Source of the DNA: Dyella sp. RRB7
GTDB lineage: Bacteria; Pseudomonadota; Gammaproteobacteria; Xanthomonadales; Rhodanobacteraceae
DNA length: 64,000 nucleotides
Direction of reading: 5' to 3'
Assembly: GCF_022761115.1 (NCBI RefSeq)
Contig: NZ_JAKWJS010000003.1
Span: 372,001 to 436,000 of the forward strand
Part shown: piece by piece, positions 5,072-10,366 of the stretch
Layout of the letters: each line of letters opens with the position of its first letter
How positions within the stretch are numbered: position 1 is the stretch's first letter
Program-made: the position numbers and the translations under genes
Notes under the pieces: model-generated
What the model was told of the DNA's origin: nothing
Databases searched by the model: none
Seen by the model: only the letters and a program-made list of their open reading frames with translations

Positions 5072-6157
5072 TCAACCCCCTGCCACCACGCGCGACCCGC
5101 GACCCGCAACACGGCGCTCACGCACGGCCTCAGCGAGGCGATCGAGCACGTCGACCGAGGTGTCCCAGTCGATGCAGCCATCGGTGATGCTCTGCCCATA
5201 GCGCAGAGGCTGGCCCGGCAGCAGATCCTGTCGACCGCCGCAAAGGTGGCTTTCCACCATGACGCCAACGATACGCTGCTCGCCTGCGGCAAGCTGGCCG
5301 GCAATATCGTCCAGTACCCGCGGTTGGTTTTCCGGCTGCTTGCCGCTATTGGCGTGACTGGCGTCGATCATCACCCGTCCATCGAGGCCCGCAGCGGTGA
5401 TGGCTGCGCAGGCCGCATCCACGCTGGCCGCGTCGTAGTTGGGCGCCTTGCCGCCACGCAGGATCACATGGCAATCCTCATTGCCCGTGGTCGCGGCGAT
5501 GGCCGTCTGGCCGTCCTTGGTTACGGCCATGAAATGATGTGGTTGCGATGCCGCCTGCACGGCGTCGACGGCGATCTTCACATTGCCATCGGTGCCGTTC
5601 TTGAAACCCACCGGACACGACAGCCCCGACGCCAGCTCGCGATGCACCTGGCTTTCCGTAGTGCGCGCGCCGATCGCGCCCCAGGCCACCAGGTCGGCGA
5701 TGTACTGCGGGGTGATCATATCCAGGAACTCGCATCCCGCCGGCACGCCCAGGTCGTTGATGTCACGCAGCAGGCCGCGTGCGGTGCGCAAGCCCTTGTC
5801 GATGTGGAAGCTGCCGTCCAGGTCCGGATCGTTGATCAGCCCTTTCCAGCCCACGGTGGTGCGCGGCTTCTCGAAGTACACCCGCATCACGATCTCCAGT
5901 TCCGCCGCGTGGCGCTTGCGCTGCGCGGAGAGTCGCCGCGCATATTCGAGCGCCGCTGCCGCATCATGGATCGAGCAAGGGCCGATCACCACCGCGAGGC
6001 GATCGTCTGCACCGCTGAGGATGCGATGCAGCGCCAGGCGCGAGGCCGCCACGGTGTTGGCGGCGTGGCCCGAGGGCATGCAGTCGCGCATGACTTCGGC
6101 GGGCGTGCTGAGTCGGGTGAGGGCGCGAATGCGCAGGTCGTCGGTGGGCTGGTGCAT
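5072..6157 (-). CDS. 3-deoxy-7-phosphoheptulonate (DAHP) synthase, class I alpha
   Basis: A 361-residue enzyme that condenses phosphoenolpyruvate and erythrose 4-phosphate in the first step of the shikimate pathway. Diagnostic motifs are VVIGPCSIHD (about residue 57), KPRTTVGWKGL, GARTTESQVHRELASG, GFKNGTDGN, ILRGGKAPNY and VMIDASHANSGK, including the metal-binding Cys, His, Glu and Asp positions of the AroF/AroG/AroH group. Which effector inhibits it cannot be read safely, so I give no AroF/G/H symbol. The start at 6157 (GGAG upstream) is preferred over the ATG at 6193, which sits directly on the terminator T-tract. The gene lies behind an aromatic attenuator (6195-6330). Confidence 0.96.
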   Translation of the reverse strand: MHQPTDDLRIRALTRLSTPAEVMRDCMPSGHAANTVAASRLALHRILSGADDRLAVVIGPCSIHDAAAALEYARRLSAQRKRHAAELEIVMRVYFEKPRTTVGWKGLINDPDLDGSFHIDKGLRTARGLLRDINDLGVPAGCEFLDMITPQYIADLVAWGAIGARTTESQVHRELASGLSCPVGFKNGTDGNVKIAVDAVQAASQPHHFMAVTKDGQTAIAATTGNEDCHVILRGGKAPNYDAASVDAACAAITAAGLDGRVMIDASHANSGKQPENQPRVLDDIAGQLAAGEQRIVGVMVESHLCGGRQDLLPGQPLRYGQSITDGCIDWDTSVDVLDRLAEAVRERRVAGRGSRVVAGG

Positions 6158-6194
6158 GGGGACTCCGGGTGATGGGGCTTCACTGGAGGCCATG

Positions 6195-6223
6195 AAAAAG
6201 GCCGCCAGTGGTGGCTGGCGGCC
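6195..6223 (-). terminator. Attenuator terminator upstream of DAHP synthase
   Basis: On the minus strand GGCCGCCAG and CTGGCGGCC form a perfect 9-bp stem with a six-base loop, followed by five T residues. It lies between the leader-peptide stop (6247) and the DAHP synthase start (6157). Earlier in the leader, minus-strand CTGGCGG (6270-6276) can pair with the CCGCCAG of the 5' arm to prevent termination, and CCGCCAG (6307-6313) can pair with that CTGGCGG. This is the 1:2, 2:3, 3:4 layout of a ribosome-mediated attenuator. Confidence 0.9.
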
Positions 6224-6246
6224 TGTTTGGGAATGGTGTCTTGCCG

Positions 6247-6330
6247 TTACGACAATCGCGACCAACCCTCCGCCAGCGGCATCGGATAGCCGTAAAACCA
6301 AAAATACTGGCGGGTGGCGAGAGTGGTCAT
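6247..6330 (-). CDS. Aromatic leader peptide (attenuator) of DAHP synthase
   Basis: A 27-codon ORF starting MTTLATRQ and then reading YFWFYGY, with a further Trp near the end (EGW). It thus has three Tyr, two Phe and two Trp, seven aromatic codons in 27. The aromatic run sits between pairing segment 1 (6307-6313) and segment 2 (6270-6276), exactly where a ribosome starved for aromatic aminoacyl-tRNA would mask segment 1 and let the antiterminator form. I see no clear ribosome site before this ATG; an in-frame upstream ATG at 6363 (MVKKAV) would give a 38-residue peptide. Its role is regulatory, not as a product. Confidence 0.85.
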   Translation of the reverse strand: MTTLATRQYFWFYGYPMPLAEGWSRLS

Positions 6331-6403
6331 GGCGTGTAGAGATAACACAGCTTTTTTGACCATGCAAAGGATGCATTTGAAACCAAGCGATACACTTGGC
6401 CGC
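6331..6403. promoter_or_regulatory. Divergent promoter region, DAHP synthase leader / DUF2236 gene
   Basis: This 73-bp gap must carry promoters for both directions. On the minus strand TTGCAT and TATCTC are 17 bases apart and would start transcription just before the leader peptide ATG; on the plus strand there is TTGACC at 6356-6361 without a convincing -10 box. The matches are weak, so the exact promoters are uncertain. Confidence 0.4.
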
Positions 6404-7327
6404 ATGCCTTCTCCCTGGAACCTGCTTGTCCTGCCTGCCCGCGAACCCATTCGCCGCTGGGTGCTGAGCGCCTTTCCACGCGGCGGTGGTGGCCATGTGG
6501 ATTACGACCACCCGGCAGGTGATCCCGGCCTGTTCGGTCCCCATAGCGCCACCTGGCGCGTGCACGCGGACTTCCCCGGCATGCTCGCGGGCGGCCTTGC
6601 CGCGCTGATGCTGCAGACCCTGCACCCGCTCGCTCTCGCCGGCGTATGGGACCACTCCAACTTCCGCGATGACCTGATCGGCCGCCTGCGCCGCACGACG
6701 TCGTTCGTCAGCGGCACCACCTATGCACCGAACGACCAGGCGCAGGCCCTGATCGAGCGCGTGAAAACCATCCATGCGCAGGTGCGCGGCAACACCGGGG
6801 ATGGGCGCCCCTACAGCGCCGATGATCCACACCTGCTGACCTGGGTGCATGTCACCGAGGCCTATAGTTTTCTGCAGGGCTATCGCCGCTACAGTCACAT
6901 CCGCCTGCCCGCCGGTGCCGCGGATCGCTATTACGATGAAGTGCGGCGCGTGGCCGAGGCCTTGGGCGCACGCGAGGTGCCCGCCTCGGAGGCCGAGGTG
7001 AATGCCTATTTTCGGCAGGTTCGCGCTGAACTGCAGTTCAGCGAACGCTCGCGGGTGGTGCTCGAGGTGCTCTCGCGCGTGCGCCTGCCGGTGCCGGTGG
7101 CCGGCTTGTCGCGCGATGTGTTCCTGCAGGCGGGCGCCGCGTTGCTGCCGCCCTGGGCCGAAACGCTGCTGGGCCGCTCGCCGTTGCAGCGGGCGCAGGC
7201 GCGGCTGGCGGCTCGCGCACTGTGGTCGGTGGCCCCGGTGTTCCGGCTGGCGTTGCACGACGGCATTGCGAGCCGCGCCTGCGCACGAGTGGGCGTGGCT
7301 CCGGAGTTGTTGCAGGACTGGGGTTAG
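6404..7327 (+). CDS. Oxygenase MpaB-family protein (DUF2236)
   Basis: A 307-residue protein. GPHSATWRVHADFPGMLAG and ALMLQTLHPLALAG are the conserved N-terminal blocks of DUF2236, followed by the HVTEAYSFLQGYRRY region. The family is named after fungal MpaB (mycophenolic acid biosynthesis) and includes the latex-clearing protein Lcp, a b-type haem oxygenase; the substrate here is unknown. The ATG chosen (MPSPWN) gives the usual family N-terminus; the frame is open back to 6314 but that part overlaps the divergent leader peptide. Confidence 0.88.
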   Translation: MPSPWNLLVLPAREPIRRWVLSAFPRGGGGHVDYDHPAGDPGLFGPHSATWRVHADFPGMLAGGLAALMLQTLHPLALAGVWDHSNFRDDLIGRLRRTTSFVSGTTYAPNDQAQALIERVKTIHAQVRGNTGDGRPYSADDPHLLTWVHVTEAYSFLQGYRRYSHIRLPAGAADRYYDEVRRVAEALGAREVPASEAEVNAYFRQVRAELQFSERSRVVLEVLSRVRLPVPVAGLSRDVFLQAGAALLPPWAETLLGRSPLQRAQARLAARALWSVAPVFRLALHDGIASRACARVGVAPELLQDWG

Positions 7328-7331
7328 TGCG

Positions 7332-7390
7332 GTCGCGCACAGGGTGCGCTCCTGCAAAAGGCCGGCGGTGGATGGCTGCCGGCCCTTTAC
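7332..7390. repeat. Short REP-like palindrome and terminator hairpin
   Basis: Bases 7332-7354 carry GTCGCGCACAGGGTGCGCTC, an imperfect palindrome of the form often found scattered between genes of Xanthomonadaceae and Pseudomonas. A related GTAGGAGCGCAGCGG occurs at about 20554. Just after it GGCCGGC (7360-7366) and GCCGGCC (7378-7384) form a stem followed by CTTT, a plausible terminator for the DUF2236 gene. Confidence 0.5.
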
Positions 7391-7462
7391 TCCTGGCATG
7401 GCCAGATTGACACCCCACGCCGATCGGCTAACGTCGCCGGATCGGAACATCAGGGGGCCAGG

Positions 7463-9334
7463 TTGGCGACGCTTATTCCATCCAGAAACAGCTGCCTGTC
7501 GCGCATGACCGGGGGCGAGAAGCGCCTGTCCGAGCGGCTCGAACAGAAGCTCGAGGACGACTACCTGCTGTGGTACGACGTGCCGATCGGCCCGAAACAG
7601 CGCCGCCCCGATTTCATCGTGTTCCACCCGCGCCGTGGCCTGCTGGTGCTGGAAGTGAAGGACTGGAAGCCCGGCACCATCCAGCAGGCCGACCGCACCC
7701 TGTTCACCCTGCTCACCGGCAGCAGCAGCGTGAAGGAGCACAACCCCCTGATGCAGGCGCGCGACTGCGCCAGTGAAATCTACAAGGAGCTGCAGCGCGA
7801 TCCGGCGCTGCGCTATCCGCCCGGCCATCGCTACGAGGGCAAGCTGCTGATGCCCTGGGCCTATGGCGTGGTGCTGGCCAATATCAGCCGCAAGCAGTTC
7901 GAGGCGGGCCAGCTCGATGCGGTGATACCCGCTCACCTGGTGATCTGCCAGGACGAGATGTACGAATCGGTGGAGCCGGAAGCACTGCAGGAACGGCTGT
8001 GGGCGATGTTCCCGCAGGTGTTTCCCACCGCGCTGACGCTGCCGCAGATCGATCGCGTGCGCTGGCACCTGTTCCCGGAGATTCGCGTGGAACCCGGCGA
8101 GGGGCAGTTCGGCCTGTTCGCGGCAGGCGAGCGCGGCAACGCGACCAAGGTGGAGATTCCCGACCTGATCAAGGTGATGGATGCGCAGCAGGAATCGCTG
8201 GCGCGCTCGCTGGGTGACGAGCACCGCATCATTCACGGCGTGGCCGGCTCGGGCAAGACGATGATCCTGGGCTTTCGCGCCATGCAGCTGGCGCGTGCGC
8301 TGAGCAAGCCCATCCTGGTGCTCTGCTACAACAAGACGCTGGCGGCACGCCTCGACCAGCTGATGGGCGAGCGCGGCCTCAGCGACAAGGTGCAGGTGTA
8401 CAACTTCCACAAGTGGTGCCGCAGCATGCTCACGGCCTACCACGTGCCGCTGCCGGAGGATGGCCCGCACTACGCCAAGGAACTGCCGCCGGCGGTGATT
8501 GCCGGCGTGGACAGCGGCCAGATTCCGCGTTTTCAGTACGGCGCGGTGCTGATCGACGAGGGCCACGATTTCGAGCCGGACTGGTACAAGCTGATCGTGC
8601 AGATGATCGATCCCAACACCAACTCGCTGCTGGTGTTGTACGACGATGCGCAGAACATCTACGGCCAGGCCAACCGCAAGAAGCTAAGCTGGAAAAGCCT
8701 GGGCGTGCAGGCGCAGGGCCGCACCACCATCCTCAAGCTCAACTATCGCAACACGCTGGAGATCCTCTCCGTGGCGCGCGGCTTCGCCAACGAGCTGCTG
8801 CGCGAACGCAGCGAGGAGGACGATGGCGTGCCGCTGATCGCGCCCGAAAGCGCGGGCCGGCGCGGCGCCCTGCCCGAGTTGATCCGCGTGGAACGCATGG
8901 AGGACCAGTTGCCGGCGATCATGCAGCGCCTGCGCGACGAGCAGGCCAGCGGCCGGCGCCTGTCCGACATGGCGGTGATCTTCCGCAATGGCTGGGAGGG
9001 CGAAAAACTGCACGAAGCCCTGCAGCGTGCCGGCATTCCCAGCCGGCTGGCCGAGGGCAACGGCAAGAGCTCGCTGTTCGTGGTCGAGGACACGGTGAAG
9101 CTGGTCACCATGCACTCCAGCAAGGGCCTGGAATTTCCGCTGGTGATCATTCCCGGCCTCGGCTCGCTGCCCAAGCCGGGCAAGGACGAAGTCGAAGAAG
9201 CGCGCCTGCTGTATGTGGCGATGACGCGCGCCACCGAGCGGCTGGTGCTGATCCACCATGAGGATTCGATCTTCAGCCAGCGCATCCGCAACGCCATCAA
9301 CGAGGTGCAGGGGCAGCTGGCGGCCATTGCCTGA
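7463..9334 (+). CDS. NERD-domain UvrD-like DNA helicase/ATPase
   Basis: A 623-residue protein. Residues about 15-130 form a nuclease-related (NERD) domain: RRPDFIVFHPRRGLLVLEVKDWK has the Asp and Glu-x-Lys pattern of restriction-type nucleases. Then comes a superfamily 1 helicase: Walker A IHGVAGSGKTMILGF (about 260), GAVLIDEGHDFEPDW (Walker B), ILKLNYRNTLEI and the C-terminal VTMHSSKGLEFPLVIIPG and LLYVAMTRATERLVL. Such proteins are linked to DNA repair or phage defence, but no partner gene is seen. The TTG start has AGGGGGCC just upstream; an ATG 14 codons later lacks a ribosome site. Confidence 0.9.
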   Translation: MATLIPSRNSCLSRMTGGEKRLSERLEQKLEDDYLLWYDVPIGPKQRRPDFIVFHPRRGLLVLEVKDWKPGTIQQADRTLFTLLTGSSSVKEHNPLMQARDCASEIYKELQRDPALRYPPGHRYEGKLLMPWAYGVVLANISRKQFEAGQLDAVIPAHLVICQDEMYESVEPEALQERLWAMFPQVFPTALTLPQIDRVRWHLFPEIRVEPGEGQFGLFAAGERGNATKVEIPDLIKVMDAQQESLARSLGDEHRIIHGVAGSGKTMILGFRAMQLARALSKPILVLCYNKTLAARLDQLMGERGLSDKVQVYNFHKWCRSMLTAYHVPLPEDGPHYAKELPPAVIAGVDSGQIPRFQYGAVLIDEGHDFEPDWYKLIVQMIDPNTNSLLVLYDDAQNIYGQANRKKLSWKSLGVQAQGRTTILKLNYRNTLEILSVARGFANELLRERSEEDDGVPLIAPESAGRRGALPELIRVERMEDQLPAIMQRLRDEQASGRRLSDMAVIFRNGWEGEKLHEALQRAGIPSRLAEGNGKSSLFVVEDTVKLVTMHSSKGLEFPLVIIPGLGSLPKPGKDEVEEARLLYVAMTRATERLVLIHHEDSIFSQRIRNAINEVQGQLAAIA

Positions 9335-9532: not shown

Positions 9533-10366
9533 ATGAAGCGATTCTTGGGGTCTGTCCTGCTTGCGCTAGGCGTGGCGTTGCCCACCTTCGCCCAGGGCCT
9601 GAACGGTGTCGTGACGTCCTACGTCGACCTGTACGCCGGACCGGACGTGGGCTACCCGCCCATTGCGCAGCTGCCGGCCGGCACCAGCGTGGCCATCCAG
9701 GGCTGTACGCAAGGCTGGGCCTGGTGCGACGTGATCACCCTGGGCATGCGGGGTTGGGTCGCCGGCACCTTTGTGCAATACACCTACCAGAACCAGCCGG
9801 TGTACGTGGCGGACTATGGCGCGCGCATCGGCATTCCCATCGTCGCCTTCTCCATTGGCCTGTACTGGGACAGCTACTACCGAAACCGGCCGTTCTATCG
9901 CAATCGCGATTACTGGTACGGTCGCCCCTATACGCCGCGACCGCCGCCGCGACCGCCGGGTTACCGGCCAGGTTATCGACCGCCCCCGCCAGGTTACCGA
10001 CCACCGGGCAATGGCCATCGGCCACCGCCCGGCCAGGGACGCCCTCCCGGCAGCCGACCGCCGCCGAACCAGGGCCACCGCCCGCCCAACCAGGGTGGCA
10101 ACCGGCCATCCCAACCGGGTAACCGGCCGCCCGGCCAGGGTAACAACCGCCCGCCTGGCCAGGGCAATCGACCGCCAGGCCAAGGCAACAACCGCCCGTC
10201 CCAACCAGGCAACCGACCGCCCGGCCAGGGAAACAACCGCCCGCCCAACCAGGGCGGCAACCGGCCTCCAAACGGCGGGCAGCGACCGCCGGGCCAGGGT
10301 GGCCATTCGCGTCCGGCGCCGCAGCAACGCCCCGCCCAGGAAAACAACGGCGGCGACCGTCGCTGA
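9533..10366 (+). CDS. Secreted SH3-domain protein with Pro/Gly/Asn repeat tail
   Basis: A 277-residue exported protein. A signal peptide (MKRFLGSVLLALGVALPTFAQ) precedes a bacterial SH3 domain at about residues 22-80 (SYVDLYAGPDVGYPPIAQLPAG, then GWVAGTFVQY). A short aromatic linker YYRNRPFYRNRDYWYGRPY leads to about 145 residues of degenerate repeats such as GNRPPGQGNN and PPNQGGNRP. SH3b domains usually bind cell-wall peptides, and such tails may span the wall or bind polymers; the role is inferred. The family resembles YraI/DUF1236-type SH3 proteins. A good AGGAGA lies before the ATG. Confidence 0.8.
   Translation: MKRFLGSVLLALGVALPTFAQGLNGVVTSYVDLYAGPDVGYPPIAQLPAGTSVAIQGCTQGWAWCDVITLGMRGWVAGTFVQYTYQNQPVYVADYGARIGIPIVAFSIGLYWDSYYRNRPFYRNRDYWYGRPYTPRPPPRPPGYRPGYRPPPPGYRPPGNGHRPPPGQGRPPGSRPPPNQGHRPPNQGGNRPSQPGNRPPGQGNNRPPGQGNRPPGQGNNRPSQPGNRPPGQGNNRPPNQGGNRPPNGGQRPPGQGGHSRPAPQQRPAQENNGGDRR

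Follow-up and report, generated by a model that had tools for sequence, protein, structure and literature searches.

The window, by which we mean the whole 64,000-nucleotide stretch of Dyella sp. RRB7 DNA that was analysed, carries on its minus strand a gene for a type I DAHP synthase, preceded by a short open reading frame rich in aromatic codons and by an intrinsic terminator (Table 1). The leader frame encodes three Tyr (Y9, Y13, Y15), two Phe (F10, F12) and two Trp (W11, W23) in 27 codons, and direct reading confirmed the YFWFYGY run on which the original prediction of an attenuator had been built. The four pairing segments and the T5 tract that it proposed were likewise exact to the base, in coordinates and in letters. 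A terminator scan of positions 6100-6500 returned a single site (shuffle mean 0.6), with a 10-pair stem containing 8 G-C pairs, and the end of its T5 tract at 6195 lies 37 nt upstream of the DAHP synthase start codon. The fold of 6190-6345 has a free energy of -59.9 kcal/mol (z -4.21), and none of 200 shuffles was equally stable. The exact segment 1 word, CCGCCAG, occurs mainly in the window's genus; elsewhere its last codon differs and the 1:2 pairing is looser.

Table 1. Features of the DAHP synthase leader region, in window coordinates
Feature	Position	Strand	Basis or remark
Possible -35 box TTGCAT, 17 nt from the -10 hexamer	6362..6367	-	TTT block conserved at -37 to -35
Extended -10 box TGTTATCTC	6339..6347	-	TG at 6347-6346, hexamer at 6344-6339; family motif
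Leader ORF MTTLATRQYFWFYGYPMPLAEGWSRLS*, 27 codons	6247..6330	-	ATG at 6330, TAA at 6249-6247; read from the sequence
Segment 1 CCGCCAG, partner of segment 2	6307..6313	-	Read from the sequence; 81.3% of cells paired in 74 leaders
Aromatic run Y F W F Y G Y, codons 9-15	6286..6306	-	Y9-Y13 are the sensing codons predicted by the ribosome models
Segment 2 CTGGCGG, within the leader ORF, partner of 1 or 3	6270..6276	-	GGCGG core complementary to segment 3
Intrinsic terminator, stem AGGCCGCCAG/CTGGCGGCCT, loop CCACCA	6195..6224	-	Terminator scan and covariation
Segment 3 CCGCCAG, 5' arm of the terminator and partner of 2	6215..6221	-	Pairing analyses of aligned leaders
Segment 4 CTGGCGG, 3' arm of the terminator	6202..6208	-	Stem covariation
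T tract (T5) of the terminator	6199-6195	-	First T doubles as stem closure
Shine-Dalgarno GGAG of the DAHP synthase gene	6163..6166	-	Read from the sequence
Type I DAHP synthase (AroFGH family)	5072..6157	-	TIGR00034 518.3 bits, PF00793 313.4 bits

The upstream neighbour, a relative of MpaB/rubber oxygenase (PF09995; 6314-7327, plus strand), is divergent and therefore does not feed the terminator at 6195, so that a terminator belonging to this neighbour was rejected. The longest ORF of the neighbour begins inside the leader region, but an ATG at 6404 may be where the gene truly starts. One minus-strand frame, 5072-8566, is open for 1164 codons and spans the gene, the leader and sequence beyond; it is probably an artefact of GC-rich DNA, which may mislead gene finders. 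Further along, at 9533-10366 on the plus strand, lies a secreted-looking protein with a tail that, by eye, is long, repetitive and rich in Pro, Gly, Asn and Gln.

Conservation of the leader was assessed in 152 loci, made up of the best 80 of 590 confirmed named loci and of matches from 72 of 147 genomes of the window's family; the remaining 75 family genomes were without a match to the type I enzyme. At least five F, W or Y within seven codons were present in 124 of the 152 upstream regions; dinucleotide shuffles reached this in 2 of 1,500 cases and opposite strands in 1 of 150. For at least four, the counts were 131 of 152, 48 of 1,500 and 10 of 150 (both controls used only the 150 loci having at least 300 nt upstream). 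The cores of the 124 leaders contain all three aromatics in 104 cases, Phe and Tyr in 19, and Phe and Trp in one. The leader ORF is kept in close relatives: an aromatic-run leader precedes the gene in 71 of the 72 family loci (L106 being the only one without), and the terminator together with a complementary segment is found in 68 of 72. Among the best 80 of 590 named loci, 60 have the leader and 20 lack it; 11 of these 20 are by title Rhodocyclales, Methylotenera or Ferrovum, and one, L062, has only 49 nt upstream.

Leaders are present in the Rhodanobacteraceae, Xanthomonas/Stenotrophomonas, the Burkholderiales and the Rhizobiales (examples are YFWFYGYPMPLAE, FYFWYYGFPMPLAEEG, FYFYFFWHLRPLADREG and SYFWYFSYDSSLAAGG), that is, in alpha-, beta- and gammaproteobacteria. 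The Xanthomonadales, in which the original prediction proposed to search, do conserve the leader, but its range turned out to be wider than this order. It is therefore hardly credible that a constitutive terminator, or the terminator of another gene, simply lies next to a chance ORF. GC-rich DNA does hold many long spurious ORFs, but such a coincidence is at odds with the rarity of the run in shuffled sequences, its recurrence in three classes, the divergent neighbour and the covarying terminator stem described below, and the chance ORF was rejected on the shuffle counts.

A FastTree phylogeny of 141 enzymes (94 with a leader, 46 without) requires at least 8 changes in leader presence, a count read without bootstrap or shuffle test from a tree with many weak branches. 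Phe-Tyr cores without Trp make up 20 of the 141 tree rows, and 12 of them belong to the Oxalobacteraceae (L007, L010, L011, L012, L014, L016, L018, L019, L020, L031, L055 and L067).

A terminator lies downstream of 127 of the 131 leaders, 68 from the family and 59 others; the detector found none in L112, L119, L120 and one other leader. The terminator stem covaries strongly. In an alignment of 74 leaders 96.2% of its cells are paired, with 33 two-sided changes against a shuffle mean of 6.7 and at most 11 in slid controls, and in 52 leaders of three classes the corresponding values are 95.2%, 31, 9.2 and at most 7. In the antiterminator, the core GGCGG:CCGCC forms pairs in 72-74 of the 74 leaders and in 50-52 of the 52 and is almost invariant, and covariation is therefore silent on the 2:3 pairing. 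For the whole 2:3 helix, 166 of 500 shuffles reach the paired cells and 213 of 500 the covariation score of the 74 leaders; for the 52 leaders these numbers are 29 and 92 of 500. For the 1:2 pairing the leaders have 28 two-sided changes where shuffles give 19.3, but neither the number of pairs nor that of pair types surpasses the shuffles. Hence, of the compensatory changes that were to be sought in segments 1-4, those of the 3:4 terminator are clearly there, whereas the 2:3 core is too constant to yield any and 1:2 stays near the shuffles.

Downstream of the aromatic run is a conserved PLAE block, in which all 74 leaders use GCG as the Ala codon. This suggests a constraint at the level of RNA, though such genomes may favour GCG anyway. 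A compact aromatic peptide followed by such a block would also be compatible with a nascent peptide that stalls the ribosome by its sequence together with a ligand signal, as TnaC does, and not through codon hunger. We consider this very unlikely, since Tyr, Phe and Trp interchange, the run varies in length and position, and the constant GCG is what pairing with segment 3 would require.

Upstream of the leader there is a promoter-like motif. Of 70 distinct family leaders, 68 carry TGNTA[TC] at -18 to -15 from the AUG, as do 3 of 560 background windows, and TA[TC]A occupies this zone in all 14 alphaproteobacterial leaders tested, against 2 of 112; a strict sigma-70 scan gave no promoter at the window leader. 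Among 71 family leader starts, 7% show Shine-Dalgarno pairing of -5 kcal/mol or below, compared with 84.5% for 71 gene starts and 47% for background windows. Because of the spacing of the -10 motif, and because the Shine-Dalgarno sequence is mostly missing, the leader is predicted to be leaderless in the family and in the alphaproteobacterial groups. In the window, the transcript would start near 6333-6331, just 5' of the leader AUG. The sequence evidence, namely the conserved extended -10, thus places the promoter-like motif upstream of the leader and not below 6247, in line with the original prediction. The 13 Burkholderiales leaders also have no Shine-Dalgarno sequence, but none of the 13 has TATAA in the leaderless -10 zone, and their start must therefore differ. 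By eye, TATAA is seen about 40-45 nt upstream of the AUG in 12 of these 13 (L028, L032, L035, L037, L040, L041, L042, L044, L046, L047, L049 and L051). Passages of PMC4842269 describe leaderless mRNAs of Bradyrhizobium japonicum with an extended -10, TGnTA, upstream.

The effect of a stalled ribosome on these pairings was modelled in two ways. In a strict model, in which RNA upstream of the ribosome is barred from pairing across it, the antiterminator exceeds 0.5 for at least one codon position in 66 of the 68 family leaders and in 59 of 59 others, and falls to a mean of 0.11 (family) and 0.12 (others) with the ribosome at the stop. In a milder model, in which only the ribosome footprint is masked, the family values are 0.60 in the run, 0.32 at the stop, 0.39 for free RNA and 0.58 at the start codon, and those of the other leaders 0.73, 0.46, 0.49 and 0.67. 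Here the run exceeds the stop in 59 of 68 family leaders and 49 of 59 others, with the order reversed or equal in 9 of 68 and 10 of 59. For the window leader the milder model gives 0.76-0.78 at Y9, F10, W11 and F12, 0.54 at Y13, 0.40 at Y15, where the antiterminator is not favoured, and 0.43 at W23; the antiterminator is favoured also at codons 2-8 (0.77-0.78) and 26-27 (0.76-0.80). A stall at Y9-Y13 would thus favour the antiterminator strongly in one model and modestly in the other. Since the antiterminator is poorly suppressed in the absence of a ribosome and is high at the start codon, the 1:2 pairing seems weaker here than in the classical trp attenuator. For the full window RNA at equilibrium the terminator stands at 0.98, with a stalled ribosome in the run or with none, and the switch must therefore be kinetic, as switching in attenuators generally is thought to be.

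The further Trp of the leader, W23, lies outside the modelled sensing window; Y9-Y13 alone contain all three aromatics. In the strict model this sensing window holds all three in 62 of 68 family leaders and in only 38 of 59 others. The latter proportion, together with the Phe-Tyr cores without Trp on the tree, many of them from the Oxalobacteraceae, would suit an attenuator that senses chiefly one or two aromatics, such as Phe and Tyr, with Trp being incidental. Such a restricted sensor is unlikely, given that 104 of the 124 leaders have Trp, a rare residue, in the core beside both Phe and Tyr, and one more has it beside Phe alone, that it falls within the modelled window of nearly all family leaders, and that it stands in the middle of the run in the window leader.

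The reading that best fits these data, to which we give a probability of roughly 78%, is transcription attenuation mediated by the ribosome, as in trp and ilv, with a leader that responds to the charged tRNAs of all three aromatic amino acids. The leader and the terminator are conserved and the promoter-like motif lies upstream of both, as attenuation through the aromatic codons would demand. According to this model, transcription would begin at the leader AUG or 1-3 nt upstream of it, as the extended -10 indicates, and translation of the leader would take place on a leaderless mRNA. When Tyr-, Phe- or Trp-tRNA is scarce, the ribosome would stall in Y9-Y13, covering segment 1 and leaving segment 2 free; 2:3 pairing would then leave segment 4 without a partner, and RNA polymerase would continue into the DAHP synthase gene. 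When all three tRNAs are charged, the ribosome would pass segment 2 and reach the stop, 2:3 pairing would be prevented in time, 3:4 would form and transcription would stop at 6195. That a leader with a switchable terminator recurs in three classes before the first-step enzyme suggests a single starvation-responsive switch; a single RNA element would probably raise DAHP synthase under shortage of aromatic amino acids, a response to starvation that we infer from the sequences.

The association with DAHP synthase appears to be specific. A covariance model built on 52 leaders was run over 369 genomes of the window's class, with strict filters and 8 scored candidates per genome, so that diverged leaders can escape it. 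It gave 7 full-length matches (E ≤ 1.3e-9), all 7 of which lie before DAHP synthase with an aromatic leader, and the idea that the same leader also precedes other genes was rejected. Some match at E ≤ 0.01 was seen in 126 of the 369 genomes; the other 23 matching loci that were fetched had neither an aromatic leader nor DAHP synthase. A plasmid search using one Burkholderiales leader region gave no match.

In a phylum-wide sample taking one TIGR00034 copy per genome, a run of at least five aromatics was found at 2 of 30 loci (L207 and L210), and 14 of the 30 genomes have three type I copies each. In one family of this phylum comparison, f108, the leader precedes 7 of 7 copies of one type, and a like leader precedes 0 of 5 copies of the other. 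At a distance of 334 nt upstream of a second copy from f108 (L222) lies a Trp-rich ORF that contains 5 aromatics but is unlike the leader and looks like chance, as do ORFs with 4 aromatics, dissimilar to the leader, at L218, L243, L250, L254 and L211. Among 28 further chosen regions, 11 have a run of at least five, and L229, L230, L232 and L233 have a leader-like run of four; in the small-genome family f199 none of 8 chosen regions has a like leader.

The window's genome encodes one type I and one type II DAHP synthase, and the type I enzyme is therefore not the sole enzyme of the first step. The original prediction placed the common first step under an all-aromatic leader. The leader does precede the type I gene, but the type II gene (L111) is also present and no aromatic leader was seen near its start. 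Nor was one seen near the starts of pheA (L186) and of a trpE-like gene (L184), and the second PF04715 match (L185) likewise yielded no aromatic run. A Trp-Trp ORF lies about 1,100 nt upstream of the trpE-like gene. Enzyme sets were counted in 30 leader-bearing genomes. The 11 from alphaproteobacteria and Xanthomonadales have one type I enzyme each and, in 10 of 11, a type II enzyme; the 19 betaproteobacterial genomes have no type II enzyme, and 17 of them have at least two type I copies. None of 18 fetched further type I copies (of 23) in these 19 betaproteobacteria has the leader, and we therefore rejected the idea that Phe/Tyr-only leaders accompany a second enzyme with a leader of its own. 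Lineages with the leader thus combine their enzyme with either a type II synthase or leader-free extra copies of type I.

The enterobacterial trp, pheA, his and leu attenuators consist of a leader with codons for the product of the pathway, of alternative 1:2, 2:3 and 3:4 pairings, and of a terminator before the gene. The present leader shares with them an ORF with product codons, the intrinsic terminator and, as predicted pairings, these alternatives. It differs in that one leader would read three aromatics, in that it would control the common first step and not a terminal branch, in that segment 2 lies within the ORF, and in that the leader is predicted to be leaderless. Attenuators for several amino acids are known as well, those of ilvGMEDA and thr, which likewise carry in one leader the codons for several related products; they serve other amino acids and another pathway. 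The view that known attenuators usually sense one amino acid must therefore be qualified, and the novelty here lies in the aromatic trio and in its target. In E. coli several isozymes share the first step, each answering to a single amino acid and subject to repressor control. One leader reading three charged tRNAs would do for one enzyme what E. coli splits among isozymes.

Searches for described relatives of the leader gave no match. Rfam families, including leaders, riboswitches and T-boxes, had no hit at the gathering score in 7 loci (the best for the window had an E-value of 3.3, far under the gathering score), and NCBIfam profiles gave no family for 4 of 4 leader peptides at E-values up to 10, so that a known RNA or leader-peptide family was rejected. 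The open-access literature searched held no aromatic-trio leader before DAHP synthase, and such a leader is absent from the portions consulted of PMC2965389, PMC1262725, PMC7815308 and PMC10219788; Panina 2001 and Vitreschak 2004 may yet describe one. The trp, pheA, his and leu attenuators are outlined in sections of PMC2659441, Table 3 of which lists Tyr attenuation at aroF, citing Camakaris 1980. This too concerns a DAHP synthase gene, but a single amino acid, and in those sections a leader of the present kind is not described. Excerpts of PMC8632094 propose an attenuator with a uORF, uORFC-13-1, before the DAHP synthase gene aroF of Acholeplasma. It is set apart by its description, with 24 sequences from Acholeplasma and environmental DNA only and a U-run that gives at least one Phe codon. 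The trpL leader of Sinorhizobium meliloti resembles ours in that its attenuator transcript begins at the leader AUG, as is predicted here, and differs in sensing only Trp and in preceding trpE, according to parts of PMC7298713 and PMC10117765. The same parts report that its RNA, rnTrpL, and its peptide, peTrpL, act in trans.

By analogy, one may speculate that the released leaderless RNA of roughly 135 nt, or its peptide, acts in trans on other genes of the aromatic pathway, the leader being an old OR-gate for aromatic hunger. We regard this as improbable. If it were true, trpE, pheA and the type II DAHP synthase, which showed no aromatic leaders of their own, would be tied to the same signal.

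The leader makes multi-amino-acid sensing testable, and the Phe-Tyr cores of the Oxalobacteraceae offer a natural comparison. As for codon usage, loci up to L110 write Phe as TTT at 183 of 230 positions in the leader cores, compared with 75 of 523 in their DAHP synthase genes, a bias that could be explained by a U-rich unstructured run or by slower decoding.
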